DNA of 50,511 nucleotides. Source: Pseudobdellovibrionaceae bacterium. GTDB taxonomy: Bacteria > Bdellovibrionota > Bdellovibrionia > Bdellovibrionales > JAMPXM01. Position numbers and translations under genes: made by a program. The stretch is from the NCBI GenBank assembly GCA_947462815.1, contig CANHQR010000001.1, forward strand, positions 96,038-146,548, written 5' to 3'. The notes under the pieces are model-generated. The model saw only the letters and a program-made list of their open reading frames with translations, was not told where the DNA came from and did not search any database. Shown in pieces: positions 605-4,811 of this stretch (position 1 is the stretch's first letter; each line of letters starts with the position of its first letter).

Positions 605-2764
605 ATGGAAGAATTGCGACAATCAACTTCGACGACTGCCAAGTTGATGAAGCTTCTGAGTATTCCGTCGAGCTCATCGGGGGCAGACCTCGTCCGGCCG
701 CCTCGCTCCGCTTGGCGCCGAGCCTTGATGAGTTTGGCACTTCTCGCCAGCTTACAGTCGACTGTGGGTCCGTTGTCGACCGCCTTCGCCGAAGACCTTG
801 AGCCCCGACAGGTTCCCAAGACAGGTCCCGTCGATATTCCCCCCGGCATGCATTTGGTGACAGATCGGGCAGGTTTACGCTGGCTCTTGCCAGAAGGCAT
901 GGAGGCGCCGCCAGATCGCGAAGTTGAAATCCGTTACTTTAGGACTCGTGTTCAGCCCGAAGAGAAAGGTCGCATTCGCGGCCAAGTTGTTCTGGACGGT
1001 CCGCTCAGCGCGGAAGATACGGTCGTTACAGGCGATGTCAACGATCGACAAAATCTCATGTCGCGCCTACCTCGCGCTTTTGCCGAGGTCATGCGACTCG
1101 AGAAGGACGCAAATCTTCATGCTCAGACCTCCAATGATCTACGAAGTCTTGGCGTATTTGCGCCGGCAGAATTTACGACGTTTCGTTTGCCGTATATTCC
1201 GATTCCAGAATCACAAATGCAGTTCTCTCACATTTCAAGCTATGCAACTCAAGACACGCAAAGACTTGTGCGCTTTGAGCACAATGGTCAGACCTTTGTT
1301 CGCTTCTTCATCCATCCCAACCACGTCAATGCCTATGCAGATTTGATCCAGCGATATGGAATCGTCTACCACTACCATGCGATGACGACTTCCAGCCCAC
1401 GTTCTCTCATCGTGATGGAGCCTGGAAATTCCGATAAAGTTCATTGGGTGAAGGTCTCGATTCACCGTGAAATTGACGGTTCTGTGCGAATTAACACAGA
1501 TAAAAAAGCCCGCCGTGCGATCATCATGAGCGAGGCGATTCAAGCCGTTCCCCAAGAAGTAATGCGCAGCTATGGCGTTCAGTTCATGCTTGAGCCCGCG
1601 GCTTTCCAGCCGCCCGGGAAGCTGGCGTCGACGATTCACCGCGAGTTGGCTCCCGATCTGTTGAATCCGGCCCGCAACACACGGTGGATCCCTGCCTTCA
1701 TCTTGCAGAATACGGGTGAGCACGCCGTGCCCGGTCTGAACATTCGCGATATGTCGCGCCTTGCGGGTGAGCGTCCGATGGACTTTGTTCGAGAGCGGAT
1801 CATTCGCCCTTTGCTGCGAAGCTATCTGGCGATGGGCATTATGGAGGGTTTGCCGGGCGAGCTTCACACGCAGAACTTTTACTATCAGCTTCGTAAATCG
1901 GGTGATGGATGGTTGCCGACCGGCCAAGTCATGTTCAAGGACAACGACGGTTTCCGTTTCGACACGGAGATGGCGATTCGTCACGGACGCCCCTTGCGAA
2001 ACTTTGCTCATTTCCCCGAGCCCTTTGTATGGGGCAAGTTCTCCAACGCCATCGGCACAGGTGCTGAAGGAGTTCCCTTCCTTGGTAGCTGGTACTACAA
2101 GCTCATTCGAAACGTGAATGGCTTTGAGACCTTGTCTGCTTATTTGTTGCGAGCCGTGAATGAGATCGATCCTCGCTCCAATTTGGATAAAGACGGCATT
2201 CAAAGGCTTTTCGATACGGTCGCCAACGAGGAGGCTTTGAAACTGACGGGACTCTCGACTCCGGCTGAACATATGGGTTTCGGCAAAGACAAGGGACTCA
2301 ACTATGTTTTGAATCGCTGGCGCGCTTACCTGGCGAATACCAATGCACCCGAAGTGACGGGCCGGCTTGCGGAGGCTCAAGATCTACTCGCTCGAGAGTT
2401 TGCTCGATTGCGAGAGGCGGGACGTGTGTCGCCGATGCGAAGAACGCTTTCTCAGAGCACCGTCTACATTCCCTACAAGATGACAGACGGTCAGTTGGTT
2501 ATTGAGGCTCGAACATCCCGAACTACAACCGCGAACCCGGATCCCGTCATTGGCTTTGCGCTCATGGAGCCTGCGGGAGAAAATGCTCAGGTTCGTAGAG
2601 CTTATGATCGCATCACTCCGATCGCCATTCGGCCTCAGCACCCGGGCAGTGTCGAAGAGGTACAGGCACGTGCACGAGGAGCGGCCCCGACGACATCGCA
2701 GCTCCGAGCGGTTCCAGCCGGTCAGCGTTGCGAATTCATCTTCACGCCGGCGGCTGGACTATGA
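605..2764 (+). CDS. Exported IucA/IucC-like (NIS siderophore synthetase-fold) protein
   Basis: This 719-residue protein has a GGAGG Shine-Dalgarno at 595-599, 5 bp before the ATG; TTG 587 and GTG 593 are in-frame alternatives. Near residue 45 comes a signal-like stretch, RR then ALMSLALLASL, ending STAFA before EDLEP, which suggests export. The body carries motifs in the order found in IucA/IucC enzymes: IHPNH, TTSSPRS, WVKVS followed by a KARRAII arginine, GELHTQN, and KDNDGFR in place of the usual RD element. Known NIS synthetases couple citrate-type carboxylates to amines or alcohols with ATP in the cytosol, so an export signal is odd. The stop overlaps the next ATG (ATGA). It may be a divergent enzyme, a pseudo-enzyme or a fold relative. 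The family call is by eye only and the substrate is unknown. Confidence 0.6.
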   Translation: MEELRQSTSTTAKLMKLLSIPSSSSGADLVRPPRSAWRRALMSLALLASLQSTVGPLSTAFAEDLEPRQVPKTGPVDIPPGMHLVTDRAGLRWLLPEGMEAPPDREVEIRYFRTRVQPEEKGRIRGQVVLDGPLSAEDTVVTGDVNDRQNLMSRLPRAFAEVMRLEKDANLHAQTSNDLRSLGVFAPAEFTTFRLPYIPIPESQMQFSHISSYATQDTQRLVRFEHNGQTFVRFFIHPNHVNAYADLIQRYGIVYHYHAMTTSSPRSLIVMEPGNSDKVHWVKVSIHREIDGSVRINTDKKARRAIIMSEAIQAVPQEVMRSYGVQFMLEPAAFQPPGKLASTIHRELAPDLLNPARNTRWIPAFILQNTGEHAVPGLNIRDMSRLAGERPMDFVRERIIRPLLRSYLAMGIMEGLPGELHTQNFYYQLRKSGDGWLPTGQVMFKDNDGFRFDTEMAIRHGRPLRNFAHFPEPFVWGKFSNAIGTGAEGVPFLGSWYYKLIRNVNGFETLSAYLLRAVNEIDPRSNLDKDGIQRLFDTVANEEALKLTGLSTPAEHMGFGKDKGLNYVLNRWRAYLANTNAPEVTGRLAEAQDLLAREFARLREAGRVSPMRRTLSQSTVYIPYKMTDGQLVIEARTSRTTTANPDPVIGFALMEPAGENAQVRRAYDRITPIAIRPQHPGSVEEVQARARGAAPTTSQLRAVPAGQRCEFIFTPAAGL

Positions 2765-3825
2765 ATCCGAGAATCTCGCGTCGTGATTTTCTCGTCGTCG
2801 CTCCAATATGGGGATCGGCTATCCTCCTCGGTTCGACTTGGTCGGCTCGAAGCTGGGCCGCGCTTTGCGAGGACATCTTTCGTGGAAGTCGTGAGGTCCA
2901 TGTTACACCCAGCATGTTGGCCTCACCGGATCGCGTGCGGGTCGCGCAGTCTATGGTTGATCTCGGTCTTTCCCAAACGGCCTATGTGGTGCGGTGGCAG
3001 TCCACTTCGCCGACGGCGCGTGGACCTTTCCCCGAGCGAGGCGAGTTTCTCGTCAGCGGCGTACCCAAAGACAAAATCGAAGCGTGGATGGAAAAAGTCG
3101 GCAGCGAATCCGTCGGCCTGGTGATTAGCGGTTTGCCGGAACGAAACCCGGGCACAGCATCCTTGAGAATCGGCGACCGGTATTTCACATTTAGTGATAT
3201 TCAAAAAGATGAGGCCTCAGATGATGGAAGCTTCATCGCGAAGGTTCGACAGGCCTCATGGGGATACTCGGAGCTCACTCTTCCCATTTCCAAGGCGGAA
3301 CAGCAGCATATTCTCGACTTCATTCTGGCGCGGCAAGAGGGCCGAGTTCTCGCACGTCGAGATCTTCGCGGGGGGCCTCGTGCTGGTCAGCCCATTCGAC
3401 CGAGCTTCGACTCCGAAGCTTTTACGCTCCGAGAGGAAAGTTGCGCCGCAGCCTGTACGAGCTGGTTTGATCCGAAATGGTTGGCACATTACGAAGGCGC
3501 GGAGCCACTGCGCGCGATCGCAGAGCGCTTGAACTTGCGTCCAACTTATATCGCCAAACAAATGCTGTGGGGCCATGTGCGACAACCGGGACCCATTGGG
3601 CTCACAATGTTTGGTATTGATCGAGATCCCAATCAAGTGCGCCTACCGGGACGTGCCGGGGGTCCCCAGTTGATGGCCGATTTCATCCATCAAAACGAGT
3701 GGTTCAAGGTTCGCGGAATGCCAGCGCATGGCTACATTCCCGATCCGCTTCGGGGGCGAACCGGAACTATTCAATCCGAACGAATTCCATTGAATGACTA
3801 TCTTTTGGGTCGAGGTGAACCATGA
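2761..3825 (+). CDS. Tat-exported protein, paralogue of the next gene
   Basis: This 354-residue protein starts at the ATG inside the ATGA overlap with the preceding stop. The N-terminus is a twin-arginine signal: SRRDFLVV, a hydrophobic stretch, then SARSWA before ALCED. The mature part is clearly paralogous to the following protein. Shared blocks include GEFL near residue 95, RGGPRAG.PIRPSFD near 205-220, ESCAxACTS with Cys228 and Cys232, and a late HGYIPDP block. The Cys-x3-Cys pair is the best candidate for an active or metal-binding site. Tat export implies folding, perhaps with a cofactor, before transport. I do not recognise the family. The operon position suggests it works with the IucA/IucC-like protein outside the cytoplasm. 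Confidence 0.75.
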   Translation: MNPRISRRDFLVVAPIWGSAILLGSTWSARSWAALCEDIFRGSREVHVTPSMLASPDRVRVAQSMVDLGLSQTAYVVRWQSTSPTARGPFPERGEFLVSGVPKDKIEAWMEKVGSESVGLVISGLPERNPGTASLRIGDRYFTFSDIQKDEASDDGSFIAKVRQASWGYSELTLPISKAEQQHILDFILARQEGRVLARRDLRGGPRAGQPIRPSFDSEAFTLREESCAAACTSWFDPKWLAHYEGAEPLRAIAERLNLRPTYIAKQMLWGHVRQPGPIGLTMFGIDRDPNQVRLPGRAGGPQLMADFIHQNEWFKVRGMPAHGYIPDPLRGRTGTIQSERIPLNDYLLGRGEP

Positions 3826-4811
3826 ATTGGCGGAAGTGGCAGAGAAGCATAGGGCCAGTCGCCCTCGGGGTGTCGCTCATCAGCAGTGTGTTGGTTTCTC
3901 CGCAGAGCGAGGCCACCTCGCGTCAGTGCGGAGCTCTATTTCGAGGCGAAGTCTTTACGGCTGAAAACACGTCGGCGATCGAAGGCGTTGAGGGGCGTGT
4001 TCGCATGTCGCGCGCCTTGATTCGTGTGGGTCTGGAGGATTTTGCCTACATCGCTAAATGGCGCCTCAAGACAGGAGCTGACGCCGGTCCCTATCCTCGA
4101 CAGGGAGAGTTTCTTTCCGTTGGTGTGACGCGCGAAAAGTTTTCGGGTTGGATGCGTGAGATCGGGGAAAAAACCATCGGTATTGGCTTTGACGGCACGG
4201 CGGCTGACCCGGGAAGTGCGAGCCTTCGAGTGGGCAATCAGCACTATTCTTACTATGGGATTCAGAGCGGCACGGCGCCGACGACGTCAAACTTCGGCCA
4301 TCGAGTTGAAGCGACATTCTATGTGACGCCCGCCGAGATGCGAGCGGTCACCGAATTTCTTGAGGCCCGAGGTCGCGGCGAGATCGTAGCGGCACGGGAT
4401 ATTCGCGGTGGACCACGAGCTGGCGAACCTATTCGTCCCTCGTTCGACTACAACTCAGCAAACCTCGTCCAGGAATCCTGCGCGGGAGCCTGCACGAGTT
4501 TCGCAAGTCCTCTGTGGTTGCAGCATTATGCGGGCGCTCGAATTCTCGAGAACTTACGTGAGCGACTGGCTCTGTATTCTCAACAGGCGGCGCGCGGCAC
4601 GGTTTGGCGCCACGCGAGGGTACCGAATCTCATGGCGATCACGCAGTTTGGCATCGATGCGAACTCAGGAAGCTTCATTGAAACCAATCGCTGGGGAACT
4701 CTGCGAAGTATTCCAATCTATTCACATATCCCAGACCCACCGACGGGCACGAGTTCGGCCCTGACGGCTCGTCGCGTTCCCCTGGCTGACTACATTCAGT
4801 CGCATCGATAA
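3822..4811 (+). CDS. Sec-exported protein, paralogue of the preceding gene
   Basis: This 329-residue protein starts at an ATG overlapping the previous stop by 4 bp. The N-terminus, up to about SEATS, is an ordinary Sec signal without a twin arginine. It shares with the preceding protein GPYPRQGEFL, RGGPRAGEPIRPSFD, QESCAGACTS (Cys220, Cys224), LQHYAGA and HIPDP. The two probably arose by tandem duplication and then adopted different export routes. The stop TAA (4809-4811) abuts the stop of the convergent downstream gene with no spacer. No known family is recognised. The spacing of Cys and later His could suit a hydrolase, but that is speculation. Confidence 0.75.
   Translation: MNWRKWQRSIGPVALGVSLISSVLVSPQSEATSRQCGALFRGEVFTAENTSAIEGVEGRVRMSRALIRVGLEDFAYIAKWRLKTGADAGPYPRQGEFLSVGVTREKFSGWMREIGEKTIGIGFDGTAADPGSASLRVGNQHYSYYGIQSGTAPTTSNFGHRVEATFYVTPAEMRAVTEFLEARGRGEIVAARDIRGGPRAGEPIRPSFDYNSANLVQESCAGACTSFASPLWLQHYAGARILENLRERLALYSQQAARGTVWRHARVPNLMAITQFGIDANSGSFIETNRWGTLRSIPIYSHIPDPPTGTSSALTARRVPLADYIQSHR

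Follow-up and report, generated by a model that had tools for sequence, protein, structure and literature searches.

Introduction

To our knowledge, the characterised NIS synthetases are cytosolic, ATP-dependent enzymes, most of which make siderophores. In a structural survey, the IucA/IucC superfamily was placed in the protein-kinase fold, with SelO aligned most closely (PMC13397572), and protein polyglutamylation was described for SidJ, which has a kinase-like fold (PMC6858067). SelO, an AMPylator, and SidJ, a glutamylase, are both cases of a kinase-related fold that uses ATP for a non-kinase transfer (PMC13397572, PMC6858067). In the open-access literature, no description of NIS-like proteins exported by Bdellovibrio was encountered.

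Here, a three-gene operon of a Pseudobdellovibrionaceae bacterium is described, the first product of which, P0001, is supported as a new exported variant of this known enzyme superfamily. If true, an exported clade with an intact active site would imply that ATP drives ligation outside the cytoplasm or that an ATP fold has been repurposed there, and it would make it possible to test directly whether intracellular predators draw on the ATP of their prey by means of exported enzymes.

Organization of the locus

The window, i.e. the whole stretch of DNA that was analysed, comprises 50,511 nucleotides, and all features of the operon lie on its + strand. P0001 (719 aa, 605–2764) was assigned as an exported NIS-synthetase (IucA/IucC)-like protein using Pfam, a family profile, AlphaFold and Foldseek; a Shine–Dalgarno-like GGAGG (595–599), read from the sequence, is located 5 nt ahead of its ATG at 605. 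The gene is followed by those of the exported partner 1, P0002 (354 aa, 2761–3825), and the exported partner 2, P0003 (329 aa, 3822–4811), and the P0001/P0002 and P0002/P0003 junctions are both 4 bp ATGA overlaps, so that the layout of three overlapping reading frames proposed in the first-pass annotation was borne out. The ordered motifs that it had listed were likewise found in P0001, namely IHPNH (residues 236–240), SSPRS (263–267), KVS (283–285), ELHTQN (419–424) and KDNDG (445–449), and were aligned with active-site segments of AcsD, AsbB and IucA.

P0001 belongs to the IucA/IucC superfamily

P0001 alone matched Pfam PF04183 (IucA_IucC) over residues 185–335 (1157–1609) with 27.0 bits at a cut-off of 25 (E 4e-6), a marginal match that is insufficient by itself, and a PDB search with the single sequence (phmmer) gave no match, so that a family profile was required. 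Homologues were gathered from 99 relatives and 291 Bdellovibrionota genomes, and 33 of them were aligned (alignment A1). Searched against the PDB, the A1 profile matched AsbB (8.8e-16), AcsD (7.2e-10) and IucA (2.6e-9), furthermore AlcC, IucC, SbnC, DfoC and DesD, and no non-NIS protein under 0.001. At E ≤ 1, PF04183 was matched by 28 of the 33 members and PF06276 (FhuF-like C-terminal region) by 20, the latter being undetected in P0001 itself.

The AlphaFold model of P0001 (pLDDT 86.1, pTM 0.81) was subjected to a Foldseek search, in which all 30 matches at E ≤ 0.001 were NIS synthetases, headed by IucC (1.8e-10); LxmK, RIO2 and a rhoptry kinase appeared below significance. Both the profile search and the structure comparison that had been suggested as checks thus came out in favour of the family, and P0001 genuinely belongs, on well-supported computational grounds, to the IucA/IucC (NIS synthetase) superfamily. 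It is about 15% identical to NIS enzymes of solved structure, with TM-scores of 0.31–0.46 over the whole chain, from which it follows that the core fold matches and the domain arrangement differs. With AsbB, AcsD, IucA, IucC and DesD, P0001 has the fold, the motif order and the ATP/adenylate residues in common; it differs from them in its signal peptide, its N-terminal extension, the low identity and a single C-terminal cysteine, and in that its gene is accompanied by exported partners, theirs by siderophore genes.

A likeness to aconitase A (SCTNTS region) in residues 567–654 (window 2303–2566; E about 2e-4 per genome) was judged to be chance, since the stretch is best kept in the home family and decays in the orthologues of genomes G013 and G273.

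Active site and two classes of exported relatives

In AcsD, K293, S279, R281, N447 and D464 are presumed here to have adenylation-site roles. R305 of the same enzyme is crucial for adenylate formation, E442 contacts the acceptor and H444 is among the mutated residues (PMC3323832). In the calculated alignment, S264, R266, K283, R295, E419, H421, N424 and D446 of P0001 correspond to S279, R281, K293, R305, E442, H444, N447 and D464 of AcsD, within an active-site stretch (1313–1942) that also includes H237 and R346. The adenylation-site residues S264, R266, K283, R295, H421, N424 and D446 are thus retained in P0001; K283, R266, H421, N424 and D446 are taken by us to be of the phosphate/Mg type.

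Among the 31 sampled members of class I, to which P0001 belongs, R266, K283, E330, R346, H421, N424 and D446 are invariant, S264 is conserved in 29, and R295 in 27, with K in its place in three others. The 17 class II members, exported proteins of Bdellovibrionota of 440–490 aa with Sec or lipoprotein signals, resemble P0001 in their export, the core and the C-terminal cysteine(s) and keep R266, K283, R346, H421, N424 and D446; unlike P0001, they carry D at position 295 (14 members), A at 264 (16) and N at 237 (16), and no P0002/P0003-type partner adjoins. Since the adenylation arginine is lost in most of class II, not every exported member can work in the manner of AcsD. The class labels do not coincide exactly with clades: without L097 and with L019, class II forms one branch (support 100) that is nested among class I rows.

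Genes for conserved exported proteins of about 311–330 aa (L101:3583-4518, L103:11707-12648 and L104:3586-4578; ATKLVDFIVSSSG) are located 19–36 bp from three class II lipoprotein genes and are perhaps those genes' own partner. In Bdellovibrio-like genomes, a glutamine-amidotransferase-like gene, named by eye, adjoins the class II gene on the opposite strand (L106:4429-5094, L110:6127-6786 and L112:2919-3593), and matches to this neighbour were also obtained in L100 and L105.

Export signals

A Sec signal peptide with a long n-region was predicted for residues 1–62 of P0001 (605–790) from a hydrophobic segment and an AxA site, with cleavage between STAFA and EDLEP. The signal-like stretch ending in STAFA that had been noted earlier is conserved among the orthologues by position, not by sequence. 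A hydrophobic N-terminus was present in all five orthologues whose start lies on the contig, with leader sequences that are unlike each other, and following the P0001-type cleavage site a conserved mature start, E-D/N/S-L-x-PRQV-P/A-K, was found behind these differing leaders. An alternative start does not abolish the signal: initiation as late as Met42 (nt 728), the last of the in-frame starts considered, would still keep the hydrophobic stretch and the AFA site.

Export was scored across the phylum by a simple hydrophobicity rule on 48 exported-branch and eight cytosolic NIS sequences of Bdellovibrionota, and a hydrophobic N-terminal segment above threshold was obtained for 38 of the former versus none of the latter. 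Three of the ten members below threshold (L037, L044 and L107) seem to have miscalled or cut starts; the other seven lie narrowly under it, with lipobox or signal-like sequences visible. Several exported-branch members are lipoproteins, as judged by their lipoboxes. In a tree of 285 core columns, with all rows from Bdellovibrionota, the exported rows were separated from the eight cytosolic NIS proteins, which derive from four paired gene clusters, with an SH-aLRT of 98. The predicted export of P0001 is well supported computationally.

The partners had also been proposed to be exported, which agrees with a Tat-like signal peptide in P0002 (SRRDFL…SARSWA, 2761–2859), TatC being present in the same genome, and a Sec-type signal peptide in P0003 (3822–3914), both recognised from the sequence.

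Partner proteins, genomic context and distribution

P0002 and P0003 are paralogues with 36% identity; in their family, C36 just past the signal peptide is invariant, as are the two cysteines of the motif ESCAxAC (C220 and C224 in P0003). No match was obtained for either protein in Pfam, NCBIfam or the PDB, for the partner fold (AlphaFold model of P0003, pLDDT 80.7) in the PDB and viral structure libraries, or for the partners against the YiiX-like protein P0004. A comparison with the periplasmic domain Lnb_N/DUF4105 (PF13387) gave a weak hhalign result (P 0.014; control 0.37): GHTFLR is in register with PGTASLR of the partners, followed by a strand and a helix, and the ENC and ESC motifs stand in the same order by eye, but the histidine is Ser/Thr in the partners and homology is not demonstrated.

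In the 291 genomes, the partner family was confined to the four that have a close P0001 orthologue, and its gene adjoined the NIS-like gene in each (4/4), which is the outcome of the Bdellovibrionota survey proposed earlier. The pair of enzyme and partner is also carried by G010, and in G011 the enzyme gene is split over two contig ends, with two partners present. The flanks of the home family are conserved, with FtsE, FtsX, an M23 peptidase and an S41 peptidase upstream and a glutamyl-tRNA-synthetase-like protein and trigger factor downstream. The surroundings are different in G013 and G273, yet the pair persists, in G273 with the partner upstream of the enzyme; since the flanks vary between families and the pair is constant, P0001 and its partner are regarded as the unit. 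The FtsE, FtsX, M23 and S41 peptidase genes directly upstream (L117:11721-16196) constitute a cell-wall division context, which is absent in G013 and G273. A 203-aa exported protein neighbouring the pair in G004, G010 and G011 was rejected as a component, its family occurring in 80 of the 291 genomes, mostly elsewhere; the copy of the home genome sits on another contig.

A scan of named genomes (alignment A3) returned three close P0001 orthologues, all from Bdellovibrionota MAGs. The A1 profile matched 94 of the 291 Bdellovibrionota genomes, a mixed total that includes cytosolic NIS pairs. The P0001 operon thus belongs to a set of exported NIS-like proteins that extends across the phylum, which suggests that a normally cytosolic chemistry, or at least its ATP-binding fold, is used outside the cell's own cytoplasm.

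A lone C-terminal cysteine

P0001 contains a single cysteine in 719 residues, C709 (codon 2729–2731), in the C-terminal tail CEFIF. Exactly one mature-chain cysteine, at most 40 residues from the C-terminus, was counted in 32 of the 48 exported members versus none of the eight cytosolic NIS proteins; as the rows are related, these counts weigh less than independent evidence, the branches nevertheless spanning the phylum. Among 200 other exported ORFs of the P0001 genome and a relative, a lone cysteine in the last 25 residues was present in two, and the idea that CxxxF at the C-terminus tags exported proteins in general was rejected on this count. Hypothetically, C709 could form a disulfide that links P0001 either to a partner or to a second copy of itself.

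The same genome encodes, on contig C4 (L126:9737-11329), P0004, an exported permuted papain-like protein of the YiiX/C92 type (PF05708). It ends in SPRCESLFTPG, which closely resembles the tail of P0001, QRCEFIFTPAAGL.

Proposed function

The first-pass annotation had stated that siderophore transporter and pathway genes are absent, which holds for the operon, for the syntenic flanks, where no siderophore gene is conserved among P0001 orthologues, and for the FecCD permease, which was not found in the home genome by a search that was positive in 13 of 14 controls. P0001 is the only PF04183 protein of this 96%-complete assembly, in which two TonB plug domains and only two oxygenase matches, weak and partial, were detected. 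Given this completeness, the lack of a second NIS enzyme and of FecCD makes NIS siderophore synthesis unlikely. Superfamily membership and the conserved active site would suit an ordinary cytosolic siderophore synthetase with an N-terminus misread as a signal, but the clade-wide signal-type N-termini, some with lipoboxes, which are missing from the eight cytosolic NIS sequences of Bdellovibrionota, the hydrophobic segment kept by the in-frame starts considered, and the absence of siderophore genes in the flanks, of FecCD and of a second NIS enzyme render this explanation very improbable. The ordinary siderophore-synthetase reading is not supported, and the use of the fold outside the cytoplasm, as originally proposed, is favoured by the fold and active site, the recurrent export signals and the lack of FecCD, of another PF04183 protein and of siderophore genes conserved in the flanks.

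We tentatively favour, at somewhat below an even chance, an exported ATP-using acyl-adenylate ligase that acts outside the predator's cytoplasm and forms one functional unit with its two partners. The superfamily, the retained site, the export signals of the clade, the partner linkage and the lack of an NIS siderophore pathway were computed, and from there we infer catalysis, ATP source, substrate and disulfide link. P0001 would leave the cytoplasm through Sec and would draw ATP from outside its own cytosol, for which prey, whether the ATP is released by it or reached inside it, is the most plausible source in view of the phylum. It may activate a carboxylate to an acyl-adenylate and then couple this to an amine or a hydroxyl group, with P0002 and P0003 serving as putative adaptor or acceptor and the lone C-terminal cysteine, together with the N-terminal cysteine of the partner, possibly holding the complex together. 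ATP-dependent acyl-adenylation is argued from the full site retained in class I, and outside ATP from the export of P0001-type proteins. This ligase is at odds with a periplasm normally devoid of ATP, with the low identity and TM-scores and differing domain arrangement, and with the class II branch, in which the adenylation arginine is lost. As no ATP is expected in the periplasm, a non-catalytic extracellular nucleotide- or carboxylate-binding module, e.g. one capturing prey nucleotides or chelates, has to be weighed; class II, keeping K283, R266, H421, N424 and D446 without R295, S264 and H237, appears to have kept binding and lost adenylation, at least there, which keeps this rival alive. 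In class I, however, the adenylation residues are conserved with hardly any exceptions, and binding alone would not call for this, so that for P0001 a pure binding module is considered unlikely.

Because the fold of the IucA/IucC superfamily has been related to that of protein kinases and of SelO (PMC13397572), protein modification is a serious rival: P0001 might be an exported effector, i.e. an adenylyltransferase or ligase of kinase-like fold acting on prey or envelope proteins with ATP from the prey cytosol. SidJ, which polyglutamylates proteins (PMC6858067), the Foldseek entries LxmK, RIO2 and rhoptry kinase and the predatory phylum of the host are consistent with such an effector. Nevertheless, the significant fold matches are NIS synthetases only, SelO and SidJ gave no significant structural or sequence match to P0001, the partner fold is unmatched, and P0001 has no delivery-system or prey-target support, so that this role is regarded as improbable, slightly more so than binding alone. 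Extended to the phylum, the ligase reading becomes a set of extracytoplasmic ATP-using ligases or adenylyltransferases on the NIS fold, with branch-specific partners, a lone C-terminal cysteine tail and prey-derived ATP, with which predatory bacteria would modify molecules beyond their own cytoplasm; this generalization is doubtful.

Two exported reading frames depart from the usual architecture: a 2118-aa ORF (L098:916-7272) opens with a class II NIS-like domain, and a class I NIS-like ORF (L053:7533-9695; GFYSGTFDPPHKGH) has an apparent C-terminal cytidylyltransferase-like stretch. PF01467 was matched by one member of the A1 family.
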